64,000 bases of DNA, taken from NCBI RefSeq assembly GCF_000377785.1, contig NZ_KB898726.1, positions 213,801 to 277,800 on the forward strand. The letters are read 5' to 3'. Within the stretch, counting starts at the first letter, position 1. Every line of letters begins with the position of its first letter. The position numbers and the translations under genes were made by a program. The notes beneath the pieces are model-generated. The model made no database searches, was not told the origin of the DNA, and saw nothing but the letters and a program-made list of their open reading frames with translations. Shown here piece by piece: positions 42,471 through 64,000 of this stretch. The DNA comes from Thioalkalivibrio sp. ALJ24. GTDB lineage: Bacteria > Pseudomonadota > Gammaproteobacteria > Ectothiorhodospirales > Ectothiorhodospiraceae.

Positions 42471-42502
42471 CGCCACGGACCTCCGGGTTCGTGGCGTTTT
42501 TT
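42471..42502 (+). terminator. Rho-independent terminator of cydAB
   Basis: CGCCACG paired with CGTGGCG (7 bp, loop of 12) followed by six T. Confidence 0.85.
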
Positions 42503-54053: not shown

Positions 54054-55017
54054 CGCGCGTCACCAGCCCCAGCTCTGCGTTGTCGATCTCGTCGTTGGTC
54101 CAAGCCTGCCCGGTTTCCGGGTTTGTCTCCCATACGAACTGATGGTTGTCCCAGGTCGATTCAGGGGCCGCCTGCCCGGTCTCGTAGTTCTCGCCGTCTA
54201 CACGGACCACGCCGGCCACCTCATCCGGTCCGCCTTCGCGCTGGATCGAGGCTTTCAGGATCAAGGCCTGCACATCAAGGTCCTCGAAGTCGGCCTCCGC
54301 GATTCGTTTCAGGGTAAACGTGGACACTTCGCCCGCGGTGTCGCTTGAGATTATATCGCTTTCGGGGGTGTCGCATGCGTTAATATCTTCGACGGAGCCG
54401 TCCCAGTCCTGCTTTTCCCCGTTGCCGTCGAGCTCTACGGTACGCAGGCGGTGGCCCCGCAAGCTGAAGTCAGCGGCAATAACCTCAGACACATACACTT
54501 GATTGAAGGAAAGCCCCGACGTCGTAACAAAGATCCGAACCTCGTCAATATCCCCATAGTCGCTAGTGTCCAGCTCTTCGCTGGCTACAAGGCCTTCGTT
54601 GAGATACCACTCGATGCCACCGTCTTTGACATGGACCATCGGGAAATTGGCCCCCGCCTCATTGAACGCGACCCCCTCCACTTCCTCCACAAACACCCAG
54701 TTTTCGCCGTCGTGGTATGCGGCCTTGAACTTCTCGTCGTCCCCAATGATCCCAGCAACCGGAGAACCGTCAGCCCGCAGCTCTATGAGGGCATATCCGT
54801 CGGCGATGTCGCCCTCAGCATGATCCATGACAACCCGGGCTCGCGCGCAAACCTCAGCGGATGCGCTGAACTTCGCCGACACAAACTCGTCGCTCCCGCC
54901 TCGAATCTCCACCGCACACCGAGAAAGGTCCCCGGACTCCACCGATCCGGTGTCTGTGCCAGAAAAGTCGAGCTCGTCGAAATCGCCGGGTTCAGACCCT
55001 ACAAACAGAATCGTCAT
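54046..55017 (-). CDS. Phage tail fibre-like protein
   Basis: A 323-residue, strongly acidic protein. It starts MTILFVGSEPGDFDELDFSG, a pattern common at the N terminus of tail-fibre proteins that hold a concanavalin/LamG-like domain. Alternating beta-type stretches such as VSAKFSASAEVCARARVVMD and WYLNEGLVASEELDTSDYGD fit such a jelly roll. It probably helps host binding. It overlaps the tail-tip gene by 4 nt. Confidence 0.65.
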   Translation of the reverse strand: MTILFVGSEPGDFDELDFSGTDTGSVESGDLSRCAVEIRGGSDEFVSAKFSASAEVCARARVVMDHAEGDIADGYALIELRADGSPVAGIIGDDEKFKAAYHDGENWVFVEEVEGVAFNEAGANFPMVHVKDGGIEWYLNEGLVASEELDTSDYGDIDEVRIFVTTSGLSFNQVYVSEVIAADFSLRGHRLRTVELDGNGEKQDWDGSVEDINACDTPESDIISSDTAGEVSTFTLKRIAEADFEDLDVQALILKASIQREGGPDEVAGVVRVDGENYETGQAAPESTWDNHQFVWETNPETGQAWTNDEIDNAELGLVTRDV

Positions 55018-58000
55018 TGCACTTTCTCCATTACCGGGAGCTCAATGTTGGTCGGCGGGCTCCCATCGGCCAACAGTGTTGCTTTTGCGGCCCGGCCGCG
55101 GCCGACGGTTTCGCTGATCTGGTACACGCGGACATCGACCGAATCCGGCACCGACTCGAAGTCCTCGATGGCATGCGACCTCGGATAGAGCGCGCTGGGT
55201 TCGTCGGACTCCAACGTGCGCAGCACTTCGCCGTCCCCGTCGAGGATGTCGACCTCATACCGCTCCGACCGCTCCGCCAGCGGGACAGTGCCTGTGCCGT
55301 CGCGCCAGGCGCCGCCTGTGCGGGTGCGCCGGACCCACGTTATGTTGATGCCGTCCATCGTCCAATCGCCGGCGATATGGACCGGGGCGTAGGGCTTCTT
55401 GTCCGCCCCGGTAATCGTCCGGGCGCGGGTGTCCACGTCCTCGAGCGACTGACCTCTCCCCACTCCTCGATAACGGATCTGGCGGCCCACCATGTCGACA
55501 GGCTCGTGCCACATCGTCCCGGCATCGGGCATCAGCACGACCTTCGCGCCTGCGCGATGCTTGAGGTTGTGCTCAGTTCCGCGGCGACCTCGCAGCAGGT
55601 GGCTCAGCCGCACGATGCCCGCCCCAATCTCCTCCGCATCGCGGTACTGGATGACCTCGCAATCCCCGTCCGCGTCGACGATCAGGGCGGCGTTCCTGCC
55701 ATCGAGGACCTGTCGTTCCGTGCGAGACTGGACCTGACCGTCCGGGTCGTAGGCTCTCACCTCGATAACGGTCTCGCGATCCCACACCCACGGACTCGGC
55801 GGAGCCCCGATACCCGACCGCAGCGACCCCATCACCGCCGGGCTCGACGTATGGGCGGCCCGGTCCCAGTCGACCCCGTCCCGCGCTCGCATCAGCGCCA
55901 GCGACCGCCACTTTCCGTCCGATGCCGGACTGGCAAACAGGTAGCGGGTGGTCAGGGCCTCTCCCGCCTCATCCTCGTCCCGCAGAAGCGGGGCCTCCGG
56001 GATCGCGTAACGACCGGGGACATCCGCCTCGACCCGACCAACGCGTGCGCCCCCGAGATCAGCCGTCACCTCCGAGCTGTAGGCCTCCGGCACATGACGG
56101 GACGCGGTGCAGCGGATCTCCCAGTTCGCACCGACCTCCGCCTCCGTGATGCGTGCCAGAGCGTATTCGCCGCCCGGCATCGGCAGGCGCACGAGATCGG
56201 TCGGATCGTAGGCGAGGAATCGCGCTGGGAGTCGGAACTCGAAGCCCTCGCGCTCCGTCCATGCCGCTGTCAGCGCACGGTCCGCCGCTTGCCGCCCCTG
56301 ATCGGGATGCAGCGCAAGCGGCAGGTTGTGCGTCACGCTGGACCGGGCCTCCATCGACGGGTTCGGCTGCGCTACACGGCGCACTTGCTGTGCCGCCTCT
56401 TGGTAGTCGGACTCCTGGTCCTGGAACTTCATCGTTACCGAAGCGGGTAGATCCACCTCCTGAACGCGCTCGATTTTCACGGCATCGCCGGAGTCGGACA
56501 GCGGCACCAGGTCTTTGTCGGTCAGCACCGTGGCCTCGTCGCCGCCGCGGGCGCGCGGGCGGAATACCAGCGTGCCGTCGGACTCCACCGCGTCGAAGTT
56601 GAACGCTTCCATCACGGGCTCGATGCCGTTCCGCAAAGGCGTCTGCCGCGTGATCGCGTAGCCTCGCACCTCCGGATCATGGATCTCGGACACGTCGACA
56701 TCGGTGATCCCCGCGCGCTCGCACAGACCCTCCACGATCTCCGCCGGGGTCGTGCCTTTGCCAGAAGCTCGATCCAGCAGGAAACGGCTGGCGAAGCCGT
56801 AGTCTGGCCCCCCCCATCCCGCAATGCTGTCGCTGGCGGGGTCATAGGACATGGCGTGGTACGAGTACACAGCGCCCCCCGACGGCCAGCAGTCCGTCTT
56901 CGTGACGACCCTACCGGAGCGCAAGTCGATCTTGACCACCCAGTCGCCGTGCTTCCACGCCATAAATCGCCCTTCGGTTCGGGTGGTAGCTACGGCGTGG
57001 TTCACATCGTAACGACGCAGCCCTCCGGAGCTGCTGAAGAGACGTTCGGACACCCACAGGACGCCGCTGTCGCCGCCGAACTTCACCGCATACAACCCCT
57101 CGGGGTTTTTCTCCGGGTCACCGAACTCCAGACCGACCAGGAACACAATGGCGTCATCAATCGGGTCGTACACCCCGCGGTTCGGCTCCCGAGTGAACTT
57201 GACCGCCCCCACGTCATCCGGGGACAGCGCCCACTTTCCAGTGAACTCCAGGCGGTAGGATATTCCGAGGGGCCCCATCTCCATGTGAGCCGTCATGCGC
57301 TCGATCGGGAGGCGGGTCTCATGCGTGTTGTTTGCCCCGCCCGAACGCAGGATCCAGGCGTCTCCGCTTTGATCGCGCTTGCCCTGGATGATCTGCCGGC
57401 ACTGCGTCGCCTCGGTTTCTCCCGAGTCGAAGCGGCCAATCCACTGCATGGAGTCGGCGTCGATCGCACCAATGACCGGGGTGTCCCACCGGCCGGACCC
57501 AAGCAATATCGTGCTCCACCCCTGATCTTCGGCCGAAAATGCCTGAATGAACCCGAACGCCGTGGAAATAGTGAATCCGCCGGAGTTTATAGAAAGGCTA
57601 ATCGCCCTGGATCCGAACCGATCGACGGCAGTCAACGAATCCGGGTCGATTTTCATCAGCGGGTTGGTGTTGCCGGCCCCGAACAGCGAGTACAGGTAGC
57701 CATCTGGCCCAAAGATCGGGTGGTTAGGCGATGTGTCCTCGTCAATACCTGACCCATCCAGTACGGCGGGATCGCTGAGGATTTCCTCGTTTGTCGCCTG
57801 GAACTCCTCTTTCAGTGTGCGCAAGTTGAACCTACGCAGCCCGTCCCTGGACCGAAGAATGAGCATGTTATTGCGCCAGTCCACGTTCGCCTGGCTGTGC
57901 GTCGAGGATGTGAACTCCGCGTCCGGCAGGGACTCCCCCTTGAGGGCCGGGCATGCGGAGTCTGACTTGAACACCACCTCGCATGTAATCATCGGAACGC

Positions 58001-58589
58001 GGCGCCCGAAGCTGTTGAGGGGCAGGTCCTCGAATACGATGTACCCGAGGCCGCGGAACGCGGGGACGTTGCCCTCGCCCTCGTGCGCCTCGATCAACGG
58101 GTCCGGCATCTGCTCTTCATCGCCCGGGTAGACCCGAAACTGCAGTCGGCCGTCGAAGGACTGGTCAACAGAACCCCCGGTGCGATCATGGATCAGCTTG
58201 CCGTCGGCCCAGATGCGGGTGACGCCTTCGATGGGTCCGGCCGCGAGCCCGATGGCGAACGAGGCGTAGTAGCTGTACTCCGTCACCTCGACCTCGTCGC
58301 CGCCGCCCTTTCCGCCCTGGGTGGTCGTGTCCGACTCCTCGCGCAGCTCGGTGGCCCAGATGCGGTTCCCCGCGGTGCGGAATGACCCGAAGCCCACAGG
58401 TATGGGCTCCCCGTAGGCCGCGGTCGACACGGACAGGTCTTCGAGCCTCGGCCCCTCCTGCTCGTGCGTGTCGGTGAAAAGGTAGCTGCCAGCCGCCGAC
58501 CCCAACGCCCAGCCGACTTTCGCCCCTGTGGGGCCGCCAACAAACCACCCGACCGCCGCGCCGACACCGCCCAGAACGAGGTCAGCCAT
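55014..58589 (-). CDS. Large phage tail-tip protein (host-specificity/GTA gp15-like)
   Basis: A 1191-residue protein. Residues 1-210 match the N-terminal part of tail-tip proteins (GGPTGAKVGWALGSAAGSYL, YGEPIPVGFGSFRTAGNRIW, FEDLPLNSFGRRVPMITCEV). Residues about 225-610 are an insertion with beta-propeller-like text (FGPDGYLYSLFGAGNTNPLM, KIDPDSLTAVDRFG). Residues 610-1191 are the phage-tail_3-type region (LRNGIEPVMEAFNFDAVESD, EVDLPASVTMKFQDQESDYQ). It would form the baseplate hub and contact the host. It is preceded by the NlpC/P60 gene. Confidence 0.82.
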   Translation of the reverse strand: MADLVLGGVGAAVGWFVGGPTGAKVGWALGSAAGSYLFTDTHEQEGPRLEDLSVSTAAYGEPIPVGFGSFRTAGNRIWATELREESDTTTQGGKGGGDEVEVTEYSYYASFAIGLAAGPIEGVTRIWADGKLIHDRTGGSVDQSFDGRLQFRVYPGDEEQMPDPLIEAHEGEGNVPAFRGLGYIVFEDLPLNSFGRRVPMITCEVVFKSDSACPALKGESLPDAEFTSSTHSQANVDWRNNMLILRSRDGLRRFNLRTLKEEFQATNEEILSDPAVLDGSGIDEDTSPNHPIFGPDGYLYSLFGAGNTNPLMKIDPDSLTAVDRFGSRAISLSINSGGFTISTAFGFIQAFSAEDQGWSTILLGSGRWDTPVIGAIDADSMQWIGRFDSGETEATQCRQIIQGKRDQSGDAWILRSGGANNTHETRLPIERMTAHMEMGPLGISYRLEFTGKWALSPDDVGAVKFTREPNRGVYDPIDDAIVFLVGLEFGDPEKNPEGLYAVKFGGDSGVLWVSERLFSSSGGLRRYDVNHAVATTRTEGRFMAWKHGDWVVKIDLRSGRVVTKTDCWPSGGAVYSYHAMSYDPASDSIAGWGGPDYGFASRFLLDRASGKGTTPAEIVEGLCERAGITDVDVSEIHDPEVRGYAITRQTPLRNGIEPVMEAFNFDAVESDGTLVFRPRARGGDEATVLTDKDLVPLSDSGDAVKIERVQEVDLPASVTMKFQDQESDYQEAAQQVRRVAQPNPSMEARSSVTHNLPLALHPDQGRQAADRALTAAWTEREGFEFRLPARFLAYDPTDLVRLPMPGGEYALARITEAEVGANWEIRCTASRHVPEAYSSEVTADLGGARVGRVEADVPGRYAIPEAPLLRDEDEAGEALTTRYLFASPASDGKWRSLALMRARDGVDWDRAAHTSSPAVMGSLRSGIGAPPSPWVWDRETVIEVRAYDPDGQVQSRTERQVLDGRNAALIVDADGDCEVIQYRDAEEIGAGIVRLSHLLRGRRGTEHNLKHRAGAKVVLMPDAGTMWHEPVDMVGRQIRYRGVGRGQSLEDVDTRARTITGADKKPYAPVHIAGDWTMDGINITWVRRTRTGGAWRDGTGTVPLAERSERYEVDILDGDGEVLRTLESDEPSALYPRSHAIEDFESVPDSVDVRVYQISETVGRGRAAKATLLADGSPPTNIELPVMEKVQ

Positions 58590-58995
58590 GCTTCACCTCC
58601 AGGCGAAACACGCCGACCACGCGCTCGGCCCAAGGGGAGACCAGCGGTTCCTCGATCACCTTCCGGCGGTGGGCATGGGCGTGGATGATGTGAGGCGCGC
58701 CGCGCTTCTCGGACTGTATGCCGACGTGCAGGGTCTGCGCACGCTCAGCGATCACGAGGACATCCCCCGGAGACGCGTCTTGGAGGTGGACCCGGGGCAG
58801 CAGCCGGTCTAGCTCGCGCATCAGGCGCGTGCCCTCCGGCCGACGGCCGTAGTCCGTGCGGTCGTGGTGCGGCAATCCGAGGGCATCGGCCACCATCACG
58901 ACCAGACCGAGGCAGTCCACGCCGGCCGGGCCGCGCCCCTGGTGCCGCCAGCGGGTTCCGAGCCACTTCCGCGCTTCTGCAACCGGTTCAGCCAT
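58582..58995 (-). CDS. NlpC/P60-family tail peptidase
   Basis: A 137-residue cell-wall peptidase of the tail tip. The catalytic Cys is in GPAGVDCLGLVVMVAD and the catalytic His in LHVGIQSEKRGAPHIIHAHA. Start and length match GTA gp14/phage lambda K-like proteins. It probably opens peptidoglycan during DNA injection. It overlaps both neighbours by 8 nt. Confidence 0.87.
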   Translation of the reverse strand: MAEPVAEARKWLGTRWRHQGRGPAGVDCLGLVVMVADALGLPHHDRTDYGRRPEGTRLMRELDRLLPRVHLQDASPGDVLVIAERAQTLHVGIQSEKRGAPHIIHAHAHRRKVIEEPLVSPWAERVVGVFRLEVKHG

Positions 58996-59842
58996 CGGGG
59001 TACTCCATCAGGGAGTCGTTGCCCGGGATGAACGGCTCGCCGCGGAAGTTCAGCACGTTGTCGAACCGATCGCGGCAGGTCTCCAGACGCTTGTCGCAGC
59101 CGGCGTAGATCTCGAACTCGTCCCCGGCTGCCGGCGTGTACGATGGCGGGAACGCCAGGGTAATGGTGTCCTTCTCGAGATCCACGGCCGTGACTTCGAT
59201 CACCTTGCCCTCGTTCTGGCCGCTCGTCCATGTCAGCACGCCGTGCTCGAAGATGCTGGCGTCCACCCCGTCGGTATCGCTGATCGAGGCCTCCAGCGTC
59301 AGATCGGTCCCGGGGCCGAGGATCACGCCGGTGTGCGTCCACTCGGACAGGTCCACCTTGCAGCGGTTGTCTCCGAGGTCGGCGCGGCAGTTCGGGGTGT
59401 AGCTCTCGATGATGTTCTGCGCGAGGGCTTGCGTCATGCCCCGCAGGCTGGTGTGCCAGTGCCCCTCCCGGGACAGGGTCACGTCGCCGATCCAACCCCG
59501 CCGGAGGTTGATGCGTCCGGCATCCGGATCCTGCCAGTCGACAGCGAACACGCGCAGCTCGGCGTGATCGTAGAGCCCGGCGCGGATATCCTCGGCGGTG
59601 ATCGTGTCCGTGCTCAGCACGCCGTCGAGGTCGGCGTTGTCCACGGACAGGGCGCCGGTGGTCGCCAGGGCGCTCCGCGTGTACCCAGTGCGGGCGGCGT
59701 AGGTCTCGCCATCGACGGTCAGGTCGTGGTCGTGGTCCGTTGCCCGGATCACGAATCCGTCCCGGCGTTCGAGCCGCCAGCAGGTTGCCAGGGTCGTGAC
59801 CTCCTGCTCCAGCAGGTCGGCCAGTCCGCCGATGTCCTTCAT
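58988..59842 (-). CDS. Phage tail protein, DUF2163/BR0599 family
   Basis: A 284-residue baseplate-hub component. The N-terminal LATCWRLERRDGFVIRATDH, INLRRGWIGDVTLSREGHWH, and the four-cysteine set near NCRADLGDNRCKVDL and YAGCDKRLETCRDRF are the family marks; in gene transfer agents the related hub protein binds an iron-sulfur cluster through such cysteines. It overlaps the DUF2460 gene by 4 nt. Confidence 0.85.
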   Translation of the reverse strand: MKDIGGLADLLEQEVTTLATCWRLERRDGFVIRATDHDHDLTVDGETYAARTGYTRSALATTGALSVDNADLDGVLSTDTITAEDIRAGLYDHAELRVFAVDWQDPDAGRINLRRGWIGDVTLSREGHWHTSLRGMTQALAQNIIESYTPNCRADLGDNRCKVDLSEWTHTGVILGPGTDLTLEASISDTDGVDASIFEHGVLTWTSGQNEGKVIEVTAVDLEKDTITLAFPPSYTPAAGDEFEIYAGCDKRLETCRDRFDNVLNFRGEPFIPGNDSLMEYPDG

Positions 59843-60468
59843 TCGCGCACCCCCAGCAGCCGGATAGACGGAATCGTCTGCAGATGCTGGAGATCCACCA
59901 TCGCCTCCATCGCATCCTCGGCGAACCGCACCGGCACGTCGAACTCGAACGTCGCCGTCAGCTCCTTTTCCTCCGGCGGCTCACCTTCCTCTGGCTCCGG
60001 CGGCACCGAGTCCCCGCTGATCGTGACCTCGCCGGTGCTATGGTCGACGGACACGTCCCCATCAGGGAGCGCCTGCCCGTCGGCGTACACCGTCACAGTG
60101 CCCTCCACGGGCCGGGTGATCCTGCGGGTGTACGCGGGGTCGCCGTAACGCTTCACGAGCTGGAACTCGGTGCTGTCGTAGCGCAGCGTTCCCAGATGCT
60201 GATCCTTGGCCTGGAAGTCCCCCCAGTCCTTGAACCTGAACCCATACGCGCGGCCCATGCGCGCGCGGAAGAACGCCAGCACCGACTGGATGTCCTCGGC
60301 GTCCTGTAGCCCGTATGAGATGTCGTACTCGGGGCGCTCCTGCGACCACTCGACGTTGCGCTGTTCGTGCCCGCTGGCCATGGTCACGACGTTGGTCAAG
60401 AATTTCGGCCCACCCACAGCACCGCGCTCAATTCGCTCGGGTAGCCGGATGTCGTGGAAACTGGTCAT
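59839..60468 (-). CDS. Phage distal tail protein, DUF2460 family
   Basis: A 209-residue protein. FHDIRLPERIERGAVGGPKF at the start and LAFFRARMGRAYGFRFKDWG in the middle are the DUF2460 signature; the end FDVPVRFAEDAMEAMVDLQH also fits. It corresponds to GTA gp12, the distal tail ring that joins tube and hub. It overlaps the tape-measure gene by 4 nt. Confidence 0.88.
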   Translation of the reverse strand: MTSFHDIRLPERIERGAVGGPKFLTNVVTMASGHEQRNVEWSQERPEYDISYGLQDAEDIQSVLAFFRARMGRAYGFRFKDWGDFQAKDQHLGTLRYDSTEFQLVKRYGDPAYTRRITRPVEGTVTVYADGQALPDGDVSVDHSTGEVTISGDSVPPEPEEGEPPEEKELTATFEFDVPVRFAEDAMEAMVDLQHLQTIPSIRLLGVRE

Positions 60469-62447
60469 AGGTTCTTCCTCGAAGCCCTGGCCATCGCAGC
60501 CTGCGTGCGCGCCATGACCTGCGACTCGCTGCGCCGGAAGCTGTCGGCGTCCTGTGCCTGGATGTTCATGTTCACGGTAATACCGCCACCCTGCCCGCCA
60601 CGGCGTTCGCGGGTGTGATCGGTAACGGTCTCATTCGGGTGCAAAATCGCTGGGAATCCGCCTTTCCCGTCCACACCGCCAGACCGCGGCCCGGGGCCGG
60701 TGTACCCGCCGCCGTCGAACGATTCCATCGCACCGCCAATAGCCCCGATGAATCCGCCCTGCTCGGACATCGCCCCGCCAATCGTCTCCAGAAGCTGACT
60801 GGCGAGCAGGTCGGCCACCATCCGATCAATCGTGGCCTTGAAGTTGCCGACAAGGTCGTCCATCTCGCCCTGCATCGCGTCAAAGAAGAAGTCCGACATG
60901 GACCGCTGCATGTTGCGCGCAGCCTCCGTCCAGAACTCCTCTGCCGCGCTGGAAGCTTCCTCGTTGCGGTCCGCGAAGTCATCCATGCTTTCCTGCGCGT
61001 CCAGGGTGGCGCGGGCGTAGGTGTCCCAGCTGATGACCCCGGCGTCCAGCATGTGGTCCAGACGCGCCATCTCCTGGTTGAGCTCTTCCAGGGGCGTGCG
61101 GGTCTCCTCGTATACCCGGGAACCCTCCTGTTCGAGCTCGCGGTAGGCCTCCGTCTGTTCGCGGATCAGTGCGACCTGCCGCTCCATCTCCCGACTGAGC
61201 CATCCGGGTCCGCTCTCGCCGGAGGGGGCGGATCCGGCGTCATCGCTCTCCGGTTCGGGGATCGGCTGAGGCTCCGGAGCGGAACGTCCGGTGGGGATAT
61301 CCAGCGGCTCGATACGCGGGCCCTGGTCGCGCGTGCCCCTCTGTTCCTGCCGCTCGTAATGGCGCTGGATGGCGCGGTCGATTTCCTCGAGCTCCTGCTC
61401 GAGCTCGTCGCGCGAGTAGTACTGCACCAGACCGTCGCGCCCGAAGAACCGCAGACGCTGCCCCATCCCCGCGATGCCCTCGAGGTTGAGCATCGTCTCG
61501 ATGCGGTCGCTCTCCTGTTCGAGACGGGCGATGTCATCTTCCGCGATGCCCCCGGTCCGGGCGGCGGCGCCCTCTGCAGCCCACTTCGTGAGATCCGAAG
61601 TGACGGACAGGAAGTCGAGACCTTTTTCCGCCGCGGTGGCCAGCGCATCCGCCAGCTGCATGTACGAGTCGGCGTTGTCGAGGATCTGCTGGTTGAACCG
61701 GCTGCTGATGATGTCCCGCATCTGCGAGAGCTGATCGTTCGCCGCGCGGGCATTGGCCACGGTCTCGTTGTCCAGAACCCGGCCCTGTTCGCGCAGGGCG
61801 TCGATCTGTTCGTCCAGCGCGTCGGAACCCTGCCCCAGCACCGCGGCCAGCCGGGGGCCGGCGTCCTCGCCAAACATCTGCGAGGCGCGCGCGGCGCGCT
61901 CGGACCCGCTCTCGATGTCGGCCAGGGTGCGCAGGGATTCGCGCAGCACGTCGTCCGTGCTGCGCATCTGCCCATCGACGTCGCGGATCGCGATCTCCAG
62001 GTCCTCGAACGTGCCGGCGGCGGCGCCCGTGCCCTGGTCGGCCAGACCAAGGCGCCGGTTAAAGCGGCGCAGCGCACCGCTGGTGACGCCCTCGGCAATC
62101 CCGCCAAGATCCTCGAACGCCTTGGTCAGCTCCTGATAGGTCTCCGCGGTCACGCCGCCTACGTCGGCGGCCTCGCTGATGGCGGCGGTCTGTTCGATGA
62201 CGTTGGATGCGGTGCGGCGCAGAAGGCTCACGCCGCCGATGCCTGCGAGCGGGCCCAGGATACGGCGCACGCCACCCATGCTCTGAGCCCACACGTCCCA
62301 CTCGCGGCGCGACCGGCGAATGGTCCGGTCCTTGCGCTCGATCTGGCGACCCAGACGCCGCAGCTCGCGGTCCGTCATGTGCATGGCGTTGACGGCGCCC
62401 TGCGAGTCCCCCGTCAGGCGGACGCCGAAGCGAACCTCACGCGCCAT
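60465..62447 (-). CDS. Phage tail tape measure protein
   Basis: A 660-residue protein that sets tail length. The N terminus MAREVRFGVRLTGDSQGAVN is typical. A central alpha-helical region is rich in Glu/Arg/Ala, with a hydrophobic stretch at about residues 55-85 (GGVRRILGPLAGIGGVSLLR). The C terminus has VNMNIQAQDADSFRRSESQV and AAMARASR, as in lambda-H/GTA gp11 type proteins. A tail of about 100 nm is implied by length, as a rough rule. Confidence 0.87.
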   Translation of the reverse strand: MAREVRFGVRLTGDSQGAVNAMHMTDRELRRLGRQIERKDRTIRRSRREWDVWAQSMGGVRRILGPLAGIGGVSLLRRTASNVIEQTAAISEAADVGGVTAETYQELTKAFEDLGGIAEGVTSGALRRFNRRLGLADQGTGAAAGTFEDLEIAIRDVDGQMRSTDDVLRESLRTLADIESGSERAARASQMFGEDAGPRLAAVLGQGSDALDEQIDALREQGRVLDNETVANARAANDQLSQMRDIISSRFNQQILDNADSYMQLADALATAAEKGLDFLSVTSDLTKWAAEGAAARTGGIAEDDIARLEQESDRIETMLNLEGIAGMGQRLRFFGRDGLVQYYSRDELEQELEEIDRAIQRHYERQEQRGTRDQGPRIEPLDIPTGRSAPEPQPIPEPESDDAGSAPSGESGPGWLSREMERQVALIREQTEAYRELEQEGSRVYEETRTPLEELNQEMARLDHMLDAGVISWDTYARATLDAQESMDDFADRNEEASSAAEEFWTEAARNMQRSMSDFFFDAMQGEMDDLVGNFKATIDRMVADLLASQLLETIGGAMSEQGGFIGAIGGAMESFDGGGYTGPGPRSGGVDGKGGFPAILHPNETVTDHTRERRGGQGGGITVNMNIQAQDADSFRRSESQVMARTQAAMARASRKNL

Positions 62448-62493: not shown

Positions 62494-62691
62494 ATGACCA
62501 AACCCGCCGGCGTATTCCTCCAGATCATTGGCGTGCTGATGATCCTGTACGGATTCACGGAGGCCGCAGAGGGCGGCAGCCAGTGGCCGATATGGGCCGG
62601 TCTCGGGCTCCTGGTGTGGGGCGGCATCGGCATCCGCAAGCGGATTGACCAGGAGACCGGTGTCACGAAGACTGACGACGATCGGAAATGA
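62494..62691 (+). CDS. Small membrane protein encoded against the tail operon
   Basis: A 65-residue protein with two helices (GVFLQIIGVLMILYGF and IWAGLGLLVWGGIGI) and a basic, then acidic tail. It lies on the plus strand between the tape-measure gene and the DUF1799 gene, and its end overlaps the end of the latter by 29 nt. A GTGAGG ribosome site precedes the ATG. This placement is typical of a phage moron with its own promoter. Function is unknown. Confidence 0.6.
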   Translation: MTKPAGVFLQIIGVLMILYGFTEAAEGGSQWPIWAGLGLLVWGGIGIRKRIDQETGVTKTDDDRK

Positions 62692-62974
62692 TCCGGAGCG
62701 TGGCTGTTTCCAGGTGCTGAACGCGCTCGAAACAGTCATCCGGGTCATCCGGGCCGTACCGCCGCAGGGCCACATCGACGCCGGCATAGTCGAGGCCGGT
62801 GGCGCCGGCCATGCCCACTCTCCACTGGGTCTGGCAGCGCAGGAACACCTCCACTGCATCCCAGTTCTCCGGCCATACGTCGATCGGTTCATCCCGCTCC
62901 TCTCGCTGCCTGAGTGCCGCTTTCAGTTCCGGGGATAGGTTCTGGTCGTCCGCCGCGCGCCCCCGGTCGATCAA
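62663..62974 (-). CDS. Tail assembly chaperone, DUF1799 (frameshift extension)
   Basis: A DUF1799 domain: PIDVWPENWDAVEVFLRCQT, then WRVGMAGATGLDYAGVDVAL. The first possible start (TTG at 62974) is poor. The frame stays open upstream to a slippery site at 62995-63001. I therefore read it mainly as the -1 frameshift extension of the preceding chaperone gene, as with lambda G-T; independent initiation is possible. Confidence 0.82.
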   Translation of the reverse strand: MIDRGRAADDQNLSPELKAALRQREERDEPIDVWPENWDAVEVFLRCQTQWRVGMAGATGLDYAGVDVALRRYGPDDPDDCFERVQHLETATLRIISDRRQSS

Positions 62975-63336
62975 CCTGCGCGCGACGTCTTCGAGTTTTT
63001 TGCCGCACCACCCCCGGTCGATACCTCCTGCAGCGCCCGCTCCAGGGCGTGAAGCAACGGGATGGACTGTCCCAGGTACTGCTCCAGGGTCTCGCGCGAG
63101 AACGGGATCGCCGCGCCGGTGTCCGGGTCGTGTGGGCCGCTCCAGTCGACCACGTGTTCCAGCAGCAGCCCGACCGGGTCGGGCCGGCTCCCGGCGGAAA
63201 GCTGGTTCACCTGATCGGTGGAGAGCGGCCGGATCCGTGCCTCGAACTCATACGTCTCGGTCTCGCCATGGTCCGCGGCCTCCACCACCTGCACCGGCCA
63301 CCACACCGGGGCCCGTTCTTTCCGGAAGGCGCGCAT
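62971..63336 (-). CDS. Tail assembly chaperone (short form)
   Basis: A 121-residue protein with the alpha/beta pattern of GTA gp10.1/TAC-type chaperones: ETYEFEARIRPLSTDQVNQL, LLEHVVDWSGPHDPDTGAAI, FSRETLEQYLGQSIPLLHAL. It starts on TGATG with the tail-tube gene. The C-terminal codons include the slip site GCA-AAA-AAC. The full -1 product would have about 224 residues. Confidence 0.82.
   Translation of the reverse strand: MRAFRKERAPVWWPVQVVEAADHGETETYEFEARIRPLSTDQVNQLSAGSRPDPVGLLLEHVVDWSGPHDPDTGAAIPFSRETLEQYLGQSIPLLHALERALQEVSTGGGAAKNSKTSRAG
62995..63001 (-). promoter_or_regulatory. Slippery heptamer for -1 frameshifting
   Basis: A-AAA-AAC, in frame with the chaperone gene (codons 112-114: GCA, AAA, AAC). 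A -1 slip moves reading into the open DUF1799 frame, with next residues LEDVARRLIDRG. The heptamer has the X-XXY-YYZ form used in tail chaperone frameshifts. Confidence 0.8.
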
Positions 63337-64000
63337 CAGGAGTACACCAGCATCAGCTCGTCATCCTCGCCGGTGGCGCGGAATCCGAGGTCATATGTGG
63401 CGATGCCGTTGCGGCTGTCGTACGGCAGCTGGGTGTACTGCGTGCGCGGCATCACCAAGCGGACACGTCGGCCCGCTCCGGTTCCGATACCCGCGGCGAT
63501 GGCCACGTAGTTGCCCTGCGACCAATCCTTGTACGGGTTGAAGTCCCCGAGGCCGGTCACCTCCGGGTCCACCGATCCTGTGGGGTCGCGCTCGGTGATC
63601 AGGAAGCCCCGGAACCCGTCTTCGGCCTGCATGTCGTTACGCGGCTGCACTTCATTCGCCATGTCGGCCTGCACGGAGTTGACGGCCACCTGCTGCATGT
63701 CGAGGTTGCCGATGGTCATCCGGGCACCCAGGGCGGGCGTGGGCACCTGGTCAAGGTATTCCCCGGAAATGGGGCCGCCCGGCGCGGGCTCCAGGTACTT
63801 GCCCGACAGGGTGAACGTGATCTGCGGGATCTCCGCGCGGGTGATATTGAGGGAGAACGTGGCACGGGCCCCGGCCACCTTGTGCAGGTTGCCGTCGAGG
63901 TCGTAGCGCAGGTAGACCGAATCCTGGTCGTTCGGGCGCGGGGAAGCGGGCCGATATACCCAGGCGTCCGCAGCGGCATCCACCGTGCCCGCCGCCTCGC
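63336..64000 (-). CDS. Phage tail tube (major tail) protein, 5' end outside the window
   Basis: At least 215 residues are visible; the frame remains open to the window edge, so the start is probably beyond it (a GTG at 63983 is the last possible start seen). LHKVAGARATFSLNITRAEI and PQITFTLSGKYLEPAPG recall tail tube proteins, as does its place right before the chaperones and tape measure. Confidence 0.7.
   Translation of the reverse strand, partial: EAAGTVDAAADAWVYRPASPRPNDQDSVYLRYDLDGNLHKVAGARATFSLNITRAEIPQITFTLSGKYLEPAPGGPISGEYLDQVPTPALGARMTIGNLDMQQVAVNSVQADMANEVQPRNDMQAEDGFRGFLITERDPTGSVDPEVTGLGDFNPYKDWSQGNYVAIAAGIGTGAGRRVRLVMPRTQYTQLPYDSRNGIATYDLGFRATGEDDELMLVYS

Follow-up and report, generated by a model that had tools for sequence, protein, structure and literature searches.

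The window, by which we mean the whole analysed stretch of 64,000 nucleotides, carries on one strand the gene order tail tube, chaperone, DUF1799 and tape measure (Table 1). The second of the two overlapping frames lies in -1 register and is open across the overlap. A reading made earlier from the sequence alone (the sequence-only reading) had placed an in-frame GCA AAA AAC at 63003-62995, and the chaperone frame indeed contains A AAA AAC there in X XXY YYZ phase. Its claim that a -1 slip enters the DUF1799 frame without meeting a stop also holds: the first codon after the slip is CTC (62995-62993) and the frame stays open until the TGA at 62665-62663 on the minus strand. A slip at this site would join 114 residues of the chaperone to 110 residues of the second frame, which agrees with the approximately 224 residues that had been proposed for the long product. 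Independent initiation of DUF1799 had been said to need a poor TTG, and the TTG at 62974 is the only start listed. The TGA of the zero frame overlaps this codon as TTGA, therefore translational coupling had to be considered.

Table 1. Features of the chaperone-DUF1799 locus and its neighbours (positions in the window).
Feature	Position	Strand	Basis
Zero-frame ORF, tail assembly chaperone, 121 aa	62971..63336	-	ORF list; phrog_569
Slippery heptamer A AAA AAC, in phase with the chaperone	62995..63001	-	sequence and conservation in relatives
DUF1799-containing extension in the -1 frame, 110 residues past the putative slip (range includes the stop)	62663..62995	-	PF08809
Zero-frame stop TGA, 21 nt past the heptamer	62971..62973	-	sequence
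TTG, sole start listed for the DUF1799 frame, candidate for re-initiation	62972..62974	-	ORF list
Possible stimulator: Shine-Dalgarno-like stretch ahead of the heptamer	63008..63015	-	duplex energy -12.9 kcal/mol
Predicted hairpin with 10-bp stem, 7 nt past the heptamer, possible stimulator	62951..62987	-	folding prediction
Tail tube gene, upstream neighbour, cut by the window end	63336..64000	-	PF18906 Phage_tube_2
Tape measure gene, downstream neighbour	60465..62447	-	several tape-measure PHROGs

The sequence AAAAAAC is found twice in the window when both strands are counted (0.61 expected; at least two in 10 of 100 shuffles), the other copy being located at 42496-42502 on the minus strand. 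Since this is near chance level, the motif alone is weak evidence and its conserved position is what counts. The run of six A is the same in the IMG/VR record L002 (4335 of 4335 shared bases), which may be the same assembly.

The second half of the pair belongs to PF08809 (DUF1799), with 77.6 bits against a cut-off of 26. For the chaperone half no Pfam family, including PF08748 (Phage_TAC_4), was found at E 0.01; the protein is 39% identical to member L003, and PF08748 is matched by 22 of the 27 aligned chaperone members (best 2.2e-37). The AlphaFold model of the window chaperone has a pLDDT of 87.9. Its three best VIA rows, all weak, are YqbN (3klu; Z 4.5, rmsd 6.3, 87 aligned), which we take to be of the chaperone type, a Vibrio PICI-element protein (Z 3.7) and the HK97 tail assembly chaperone (2ob9; Z 3.1, rmsd 5.7, 84 aligned). 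These rows are no more than suggestive of an HK97-like chaperone fold for the modelled protein. Foldseek at E 0.001 returned no match for either model, the VIA rows of the DUF1799 model are of unrelated kinds with every Z at or below 3.6, and a sequence search of the PDB gave two weak unrelated rows for the chaperone and none for DUF1799. A profile comparison of the two halves showed no likeness. Of the two chaperones that had been proposed, the first is retained, while the second half is rather a DUF1799 domain added by the frameshift, comparable to gpG and gpGT.

Conservation of the slip site and competing explanations

Relatives were collected in several steps. A scan of viral contigs (IMG/VR) yielded 225 relatives, of which 80 were kept as the first sample; 19 phage records, picked for variety among 779 matching ones, 80 loci of bacterial genomes and 177 loci of three further viral scans were added. 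Altogether, 356 of 358 loci were analysed, L001 and L082 (the window's own) being dropped since they had no forward DUF1799 hit, and they were grouped into 127 clusters. An in-frame X XXY YYZ heptamer is present at the overlap in 79 of the 80 IMG/VR relatives; the remaining one, L005, is cut by the start of its contig. Among the clusters, a slippery heptamer lies in frame at the overlap in 123 of 127. The zero-frame stop follows at 0 nt in 108 clusters (66 with A AAA AAC, 42 with G GGA AAC) and at 3 nt in nine (seven with G GGA AAC, two with A AAA AAC); six further clusters, the window included, are single cases with distances of 6 to 42 nt, and four have no heptamer. Where several heptamers were in range the canonical one closest to the stop was taken, which could favour short distances. 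One locus, L276, was scored as lacking a heptamer owing to its 45-codon zero frame and does carry A AAA AAC with a stop. The phage records have the heptamer in 16 of 19 cases (stop at 0 nt in 15), and in a later sample from two other queries it was found in 42 of 51 new loci (31 of the 42 at 0 nt). A AAA AAC and G GGA AAC, which are both of the tandem-slip type, substitute for one another among the relatives. Conservation of heptamer and frames, named by the sequence-only reading as a point to check, is thus seen in many phage groups.

Because the heptamer is conserved in place at the overlap across relatives, we regard the frameshift reading as settled: judged from the sequences, the window pair is very probably expressed by programmed -1 ribosomal frameshifting of the lambda G-GT kind, both the slippage and its rate being inferred. 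The majority of ribosomes would finish the chaperone gene at its own stop, giving the short form of 121 residues. A minority would slip one base back on A AAA AAC, where tRNA-Lys and tRNA-Asn could re-pair in tandem, and would continue into DUF1799 to give the 224-residue fusion. By analogy to lambda, the short form would bind the tape measure protein, the tail tube subunit would be brought in by a few copies of the long form, and the two products would be made in a fixed ratio. Some observations do not fit as well. The hairpin of the window is non-significant (see below), its chaperone lies below the Pfam threshold for TAC_4, and sites of the Webervirus, Rogunavirus and Koroua types are without a canonical heptamer.

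Re-initiation is the first alternative, in which DUF1799 is a separate protein: ribosomes that terminate at the overlapping TGA would immediately start anew at TTG 62974. The TTGA overlap and the lack of another listed start fit this explanation, but in the alignment the family-conserved residues K1, L2 and A6 are encoded before the TTG, and the heptamer is left unexplained. A strong start of DUF1799 in relatives would also speak for separate translation; an ATG with a Shine-Dalgarno-like 4-mer up to 60 nt past the heptamer occurs in only four of 123 clusters. In 52 of 123 clusters the DUF1799 frame has no ATG, GTG or TTG at all between the point where it opens and 60 nt past the heptamer, and in 30 of 123 there is none as far as 105 nt. 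We consider re-initiation highly unlikely. Slippage of RNA polymerase on the A run, which would alter the length of part of the mRNA and so join the frames, is less probable still. Six A are present in the window, but such slippage usually requires longer runs, 121 of the 123 heptamers end in C in phase, and 50 of those 121 clusters have G GGA AAC, which contains no long A run. A sequencing error or a broken gene is the third alternative, as homopolymers are common places of error and the window alone cannot exclude one; the same split, phase and heptamer are repeated across many assemblies, in 123 of 127 clusters, which leaves this explanation a very small chance.

A few relatives have atypical sites. 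Loci of the Webervirus type (L097, L194-L196, L233, L447-L454) and L099 lack a canonical heptamer; the sites read A AAA GTC TAA or A AAA GTT TAA, and A AAG GTC TAA in phage e4/1c. In the Webervirus type the Asn codon is now GTY and the stop is retained, while the close relative L455 has A AAA AAC TAA. In Pectobacterium phage Koroua (L098, 1396-1404) the frames change at CAA AAG TAA, a site with only one Lys codon able to re-pair and with the stop adjacent; A AAA AAC TAG is found in L443 and L446, which are related to Koroua.

The stop codon behind the heptamer

In most relatives the zero-frame stop directly follows the heptamer; the window is an exception. Codon choice at this position was analysed in the 121 of 127 clusters that have a heptamer ending in C. 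All 121 clusters have Leu in the DUF1799 frame after this final C. The following zero-frame codon therefore consists of the last two bases of the Leu codon and the next base. Under protein-only selection 51.9 abutting stops would be expected from local codon usage, and 108 were observed (P 2e-43). With a G at the start of the next codon, a stop requires the Leu codon CTA, which is used in 10 of 11 such clusters (1.5 expected, P 9e-10); the only one without CTA is the window phage. Both P values overstate the significance, since the clusters share descent, and the effect survives thinning: abutting stops remain in 46 of 53 clusters at less than 50% identity (22.8 expected) and in 14 of 19 at less than 40% (7.5 expected). 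At the slip site 49 of the 121 Leu codons are CTA; in GLDY, where the Leu is conserved, this is the case for one of 84 CTN codons. If the next codon starts with C, a stop at 0 nt is impossible, and in eight of 11 such clusters the stop comes one codon later. The choice of Leu codon favours the stop, and judging from this codon usage the early stop after the heptamer is under selection in the DUF1799 relatives.

A weak stop codon as the purpose of the abutment was rejected: TGA, TAA and TAG are used at 0.55, 0.36 and 0.09 at the 108 abutting sites and at 0.51, 0.39 and 0.10 in 484 other genes, so that usage at the site resembles that of other genes.

In lambda the gap between heptamer and stop is 15 nt, as it is in all 80 loci of a scan with lambda T, which are all near-identical. 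Mean gaps stated in the PRFect paper (PMC10885494) are 26 nt in the phages used for training and 36 nt in the Xu set. Taken with the lambda gap, these means make the abutment look unusual among known tail-chaperone frameshifts. In HK97 a scan of the last 150 nt before the stop revealed no X XXY YYZ. A paper describing the abutting stop in DUF1799 phages was not found among the openly licensed PMC papers.

Two functions can be considered. The stop might stimulate slippage, via a pause or a queue at termination, or it might merely end the short chaperone cleanly if each extra residue is costly. The sequences do not separate these two options. The Koroua site favours stimulation, since only its Lys codon re-pairs and the stop stands in the A site; this is a single case. 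As a tentative proposal, which we hold to be somewhat less probable than its opposite, the selected stop would be a working part of the site: the pause or queue at termination would raise or set the slip rate and thereby tie the ratio of long to short product to termination, and the window phage would have lost this stop and would lean on its upstream Shine-Dalgarno-like stretch. The selected abutting stop provides a large natural set to test termination as a driver of bacterial -1 frameshifting.

Candidate stimulators and related systems

The slip in the window is perhaps aided by the upstream Shine-Dalgarno-like stretch and the hairpin. In the interval from -18 to -9 the energy of this stretch ranks first of 121 loci; compared with synonymous resamples it gives P 0.115. 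Across the family, pairing to the anti-Shine-Dalgarno sequence peaks at -15 to -11. This pairing was rejected as a family-wide stimulator, as it is mostly due to the encoded residues (-4.14, resampled -3.63; mean per-locus P 0.53). Loci without abutting stop were not found to have stronger pairing in a group test (P 0.66), and stronger hairpins in these loci were rejected as well, the folds being weaker there. All four loci with the stop at least 9 nt away have Shine-Dalgarno energies of -6.3 or below, a post hoc observation in G+C-rich sequence. The hairpin of the window folds no better than shuffles (z -0.36; -1.33, -0.77 and +0.58) or synonymous resamples (z +0.23) and was rejected as a stimulator. 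Family-wide, folding of the downstream stretch is more stable than that of its synonymous resamples (mean z of -1.15, compared with -0.38 for a control stretch), and against dinucleotide shuffles the gap between site (-1.13) and control (-0.74) is smaller. Since neither the Shine-Dalgarno-like stretch nor the hairpin of the window is significant by itself, it is a guess that they compensate for the absent abutting stop.

In lambda, G and GT are encoded in overlapping frames; the short form is described to bind the tape measure protein and the added domain the tail tube subunit, and both chaperones are absent from the virion (PMC5009743). As described for lambda, the frames of the window overlap between tail tube and tape measure genes, with a putative -1 slip on an X XXY YYZ site near the end of the first frame. 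The lambda site is G GGA AAG with a closer stop than in the window, which has A AAA AAC, and a more distant one than in most DUF1799 relatives. The second domain of lambda is T and that of the window DUF1799. For two tail-chaperone genes, measured frameshifting of 6% and 7% is given by the authors of GeneTack (PMC3711429).

The T1-like phages (Drexlerviridae) resemble the window in that a frameshift leads from the chaperone, of TAC_4 type in these phages, into a DUF1799-related frame; they are distant in sequence, and the site of Klebsiella phage KOX1, A AAA GTC TAA, is non-canonical. The frameshift itself is already on record in this group: the KOX1 record annotates the joined product, and the phages Stevie and Solomon were announced with a tape measure chaperone frameshift (PMC4319613, PMC8407766).

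A stop 0 or 3 nt past the slip site, as in the relatives of the window phage but not in the window itself, is described for plant umbra-, diantho- and luteoviruses (PEMV, BYDV); these are RNA viruses translated by eukaryotic ribosomes and have no kinship to the phages. For PEMV it is stated that any stop works 3 nt past the site and that a sense codon reduces frameshifting by 72% in vitro; results for BYDV and RSV conflict, and a direct pause is doubted (PMC4737148).

Annotation and genomic surroundings

The frameshift reading settles the annotation of the window locus: DUF1799 is to be named as the half of a tail chaperone that the frameshift adds, and no longer as a free protein of unknown function. 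The same applies to most DUF1799 loci examined; many of them are entered in the records as independent 'hypothetical proteins' or carry unrelated names. In L084 (1525-1836) DUF1799 is labelled 'FAD-dependent oxidoreductase', and in L087 (1127-1507) the chaperone is labelled ABC transporter ATPase. The chaperone PHROGs phrog_569 and phrog_680 are both labelled 'tail length tape measure protein'.

DUF1799 is found in one of 47 genomes of the host family, the window's own, which indicates that the prophage is a sporadic visitor. A 65-aa ORF with hydrophobic stretches is located on the plus strand (62494-62691) between DUF1799 and the tape measure gene; at this position phage PS-1 has a CDS on the opposite strand and HK97 a gene noted as moron product. 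Further along the window, tail-tip genes on the minus strand (55014-59842) encode phiJL001 Gp84-like, NlpC/P60 and Rcc01698-like domains, a set that is presumably the one known from gene transfer agents.
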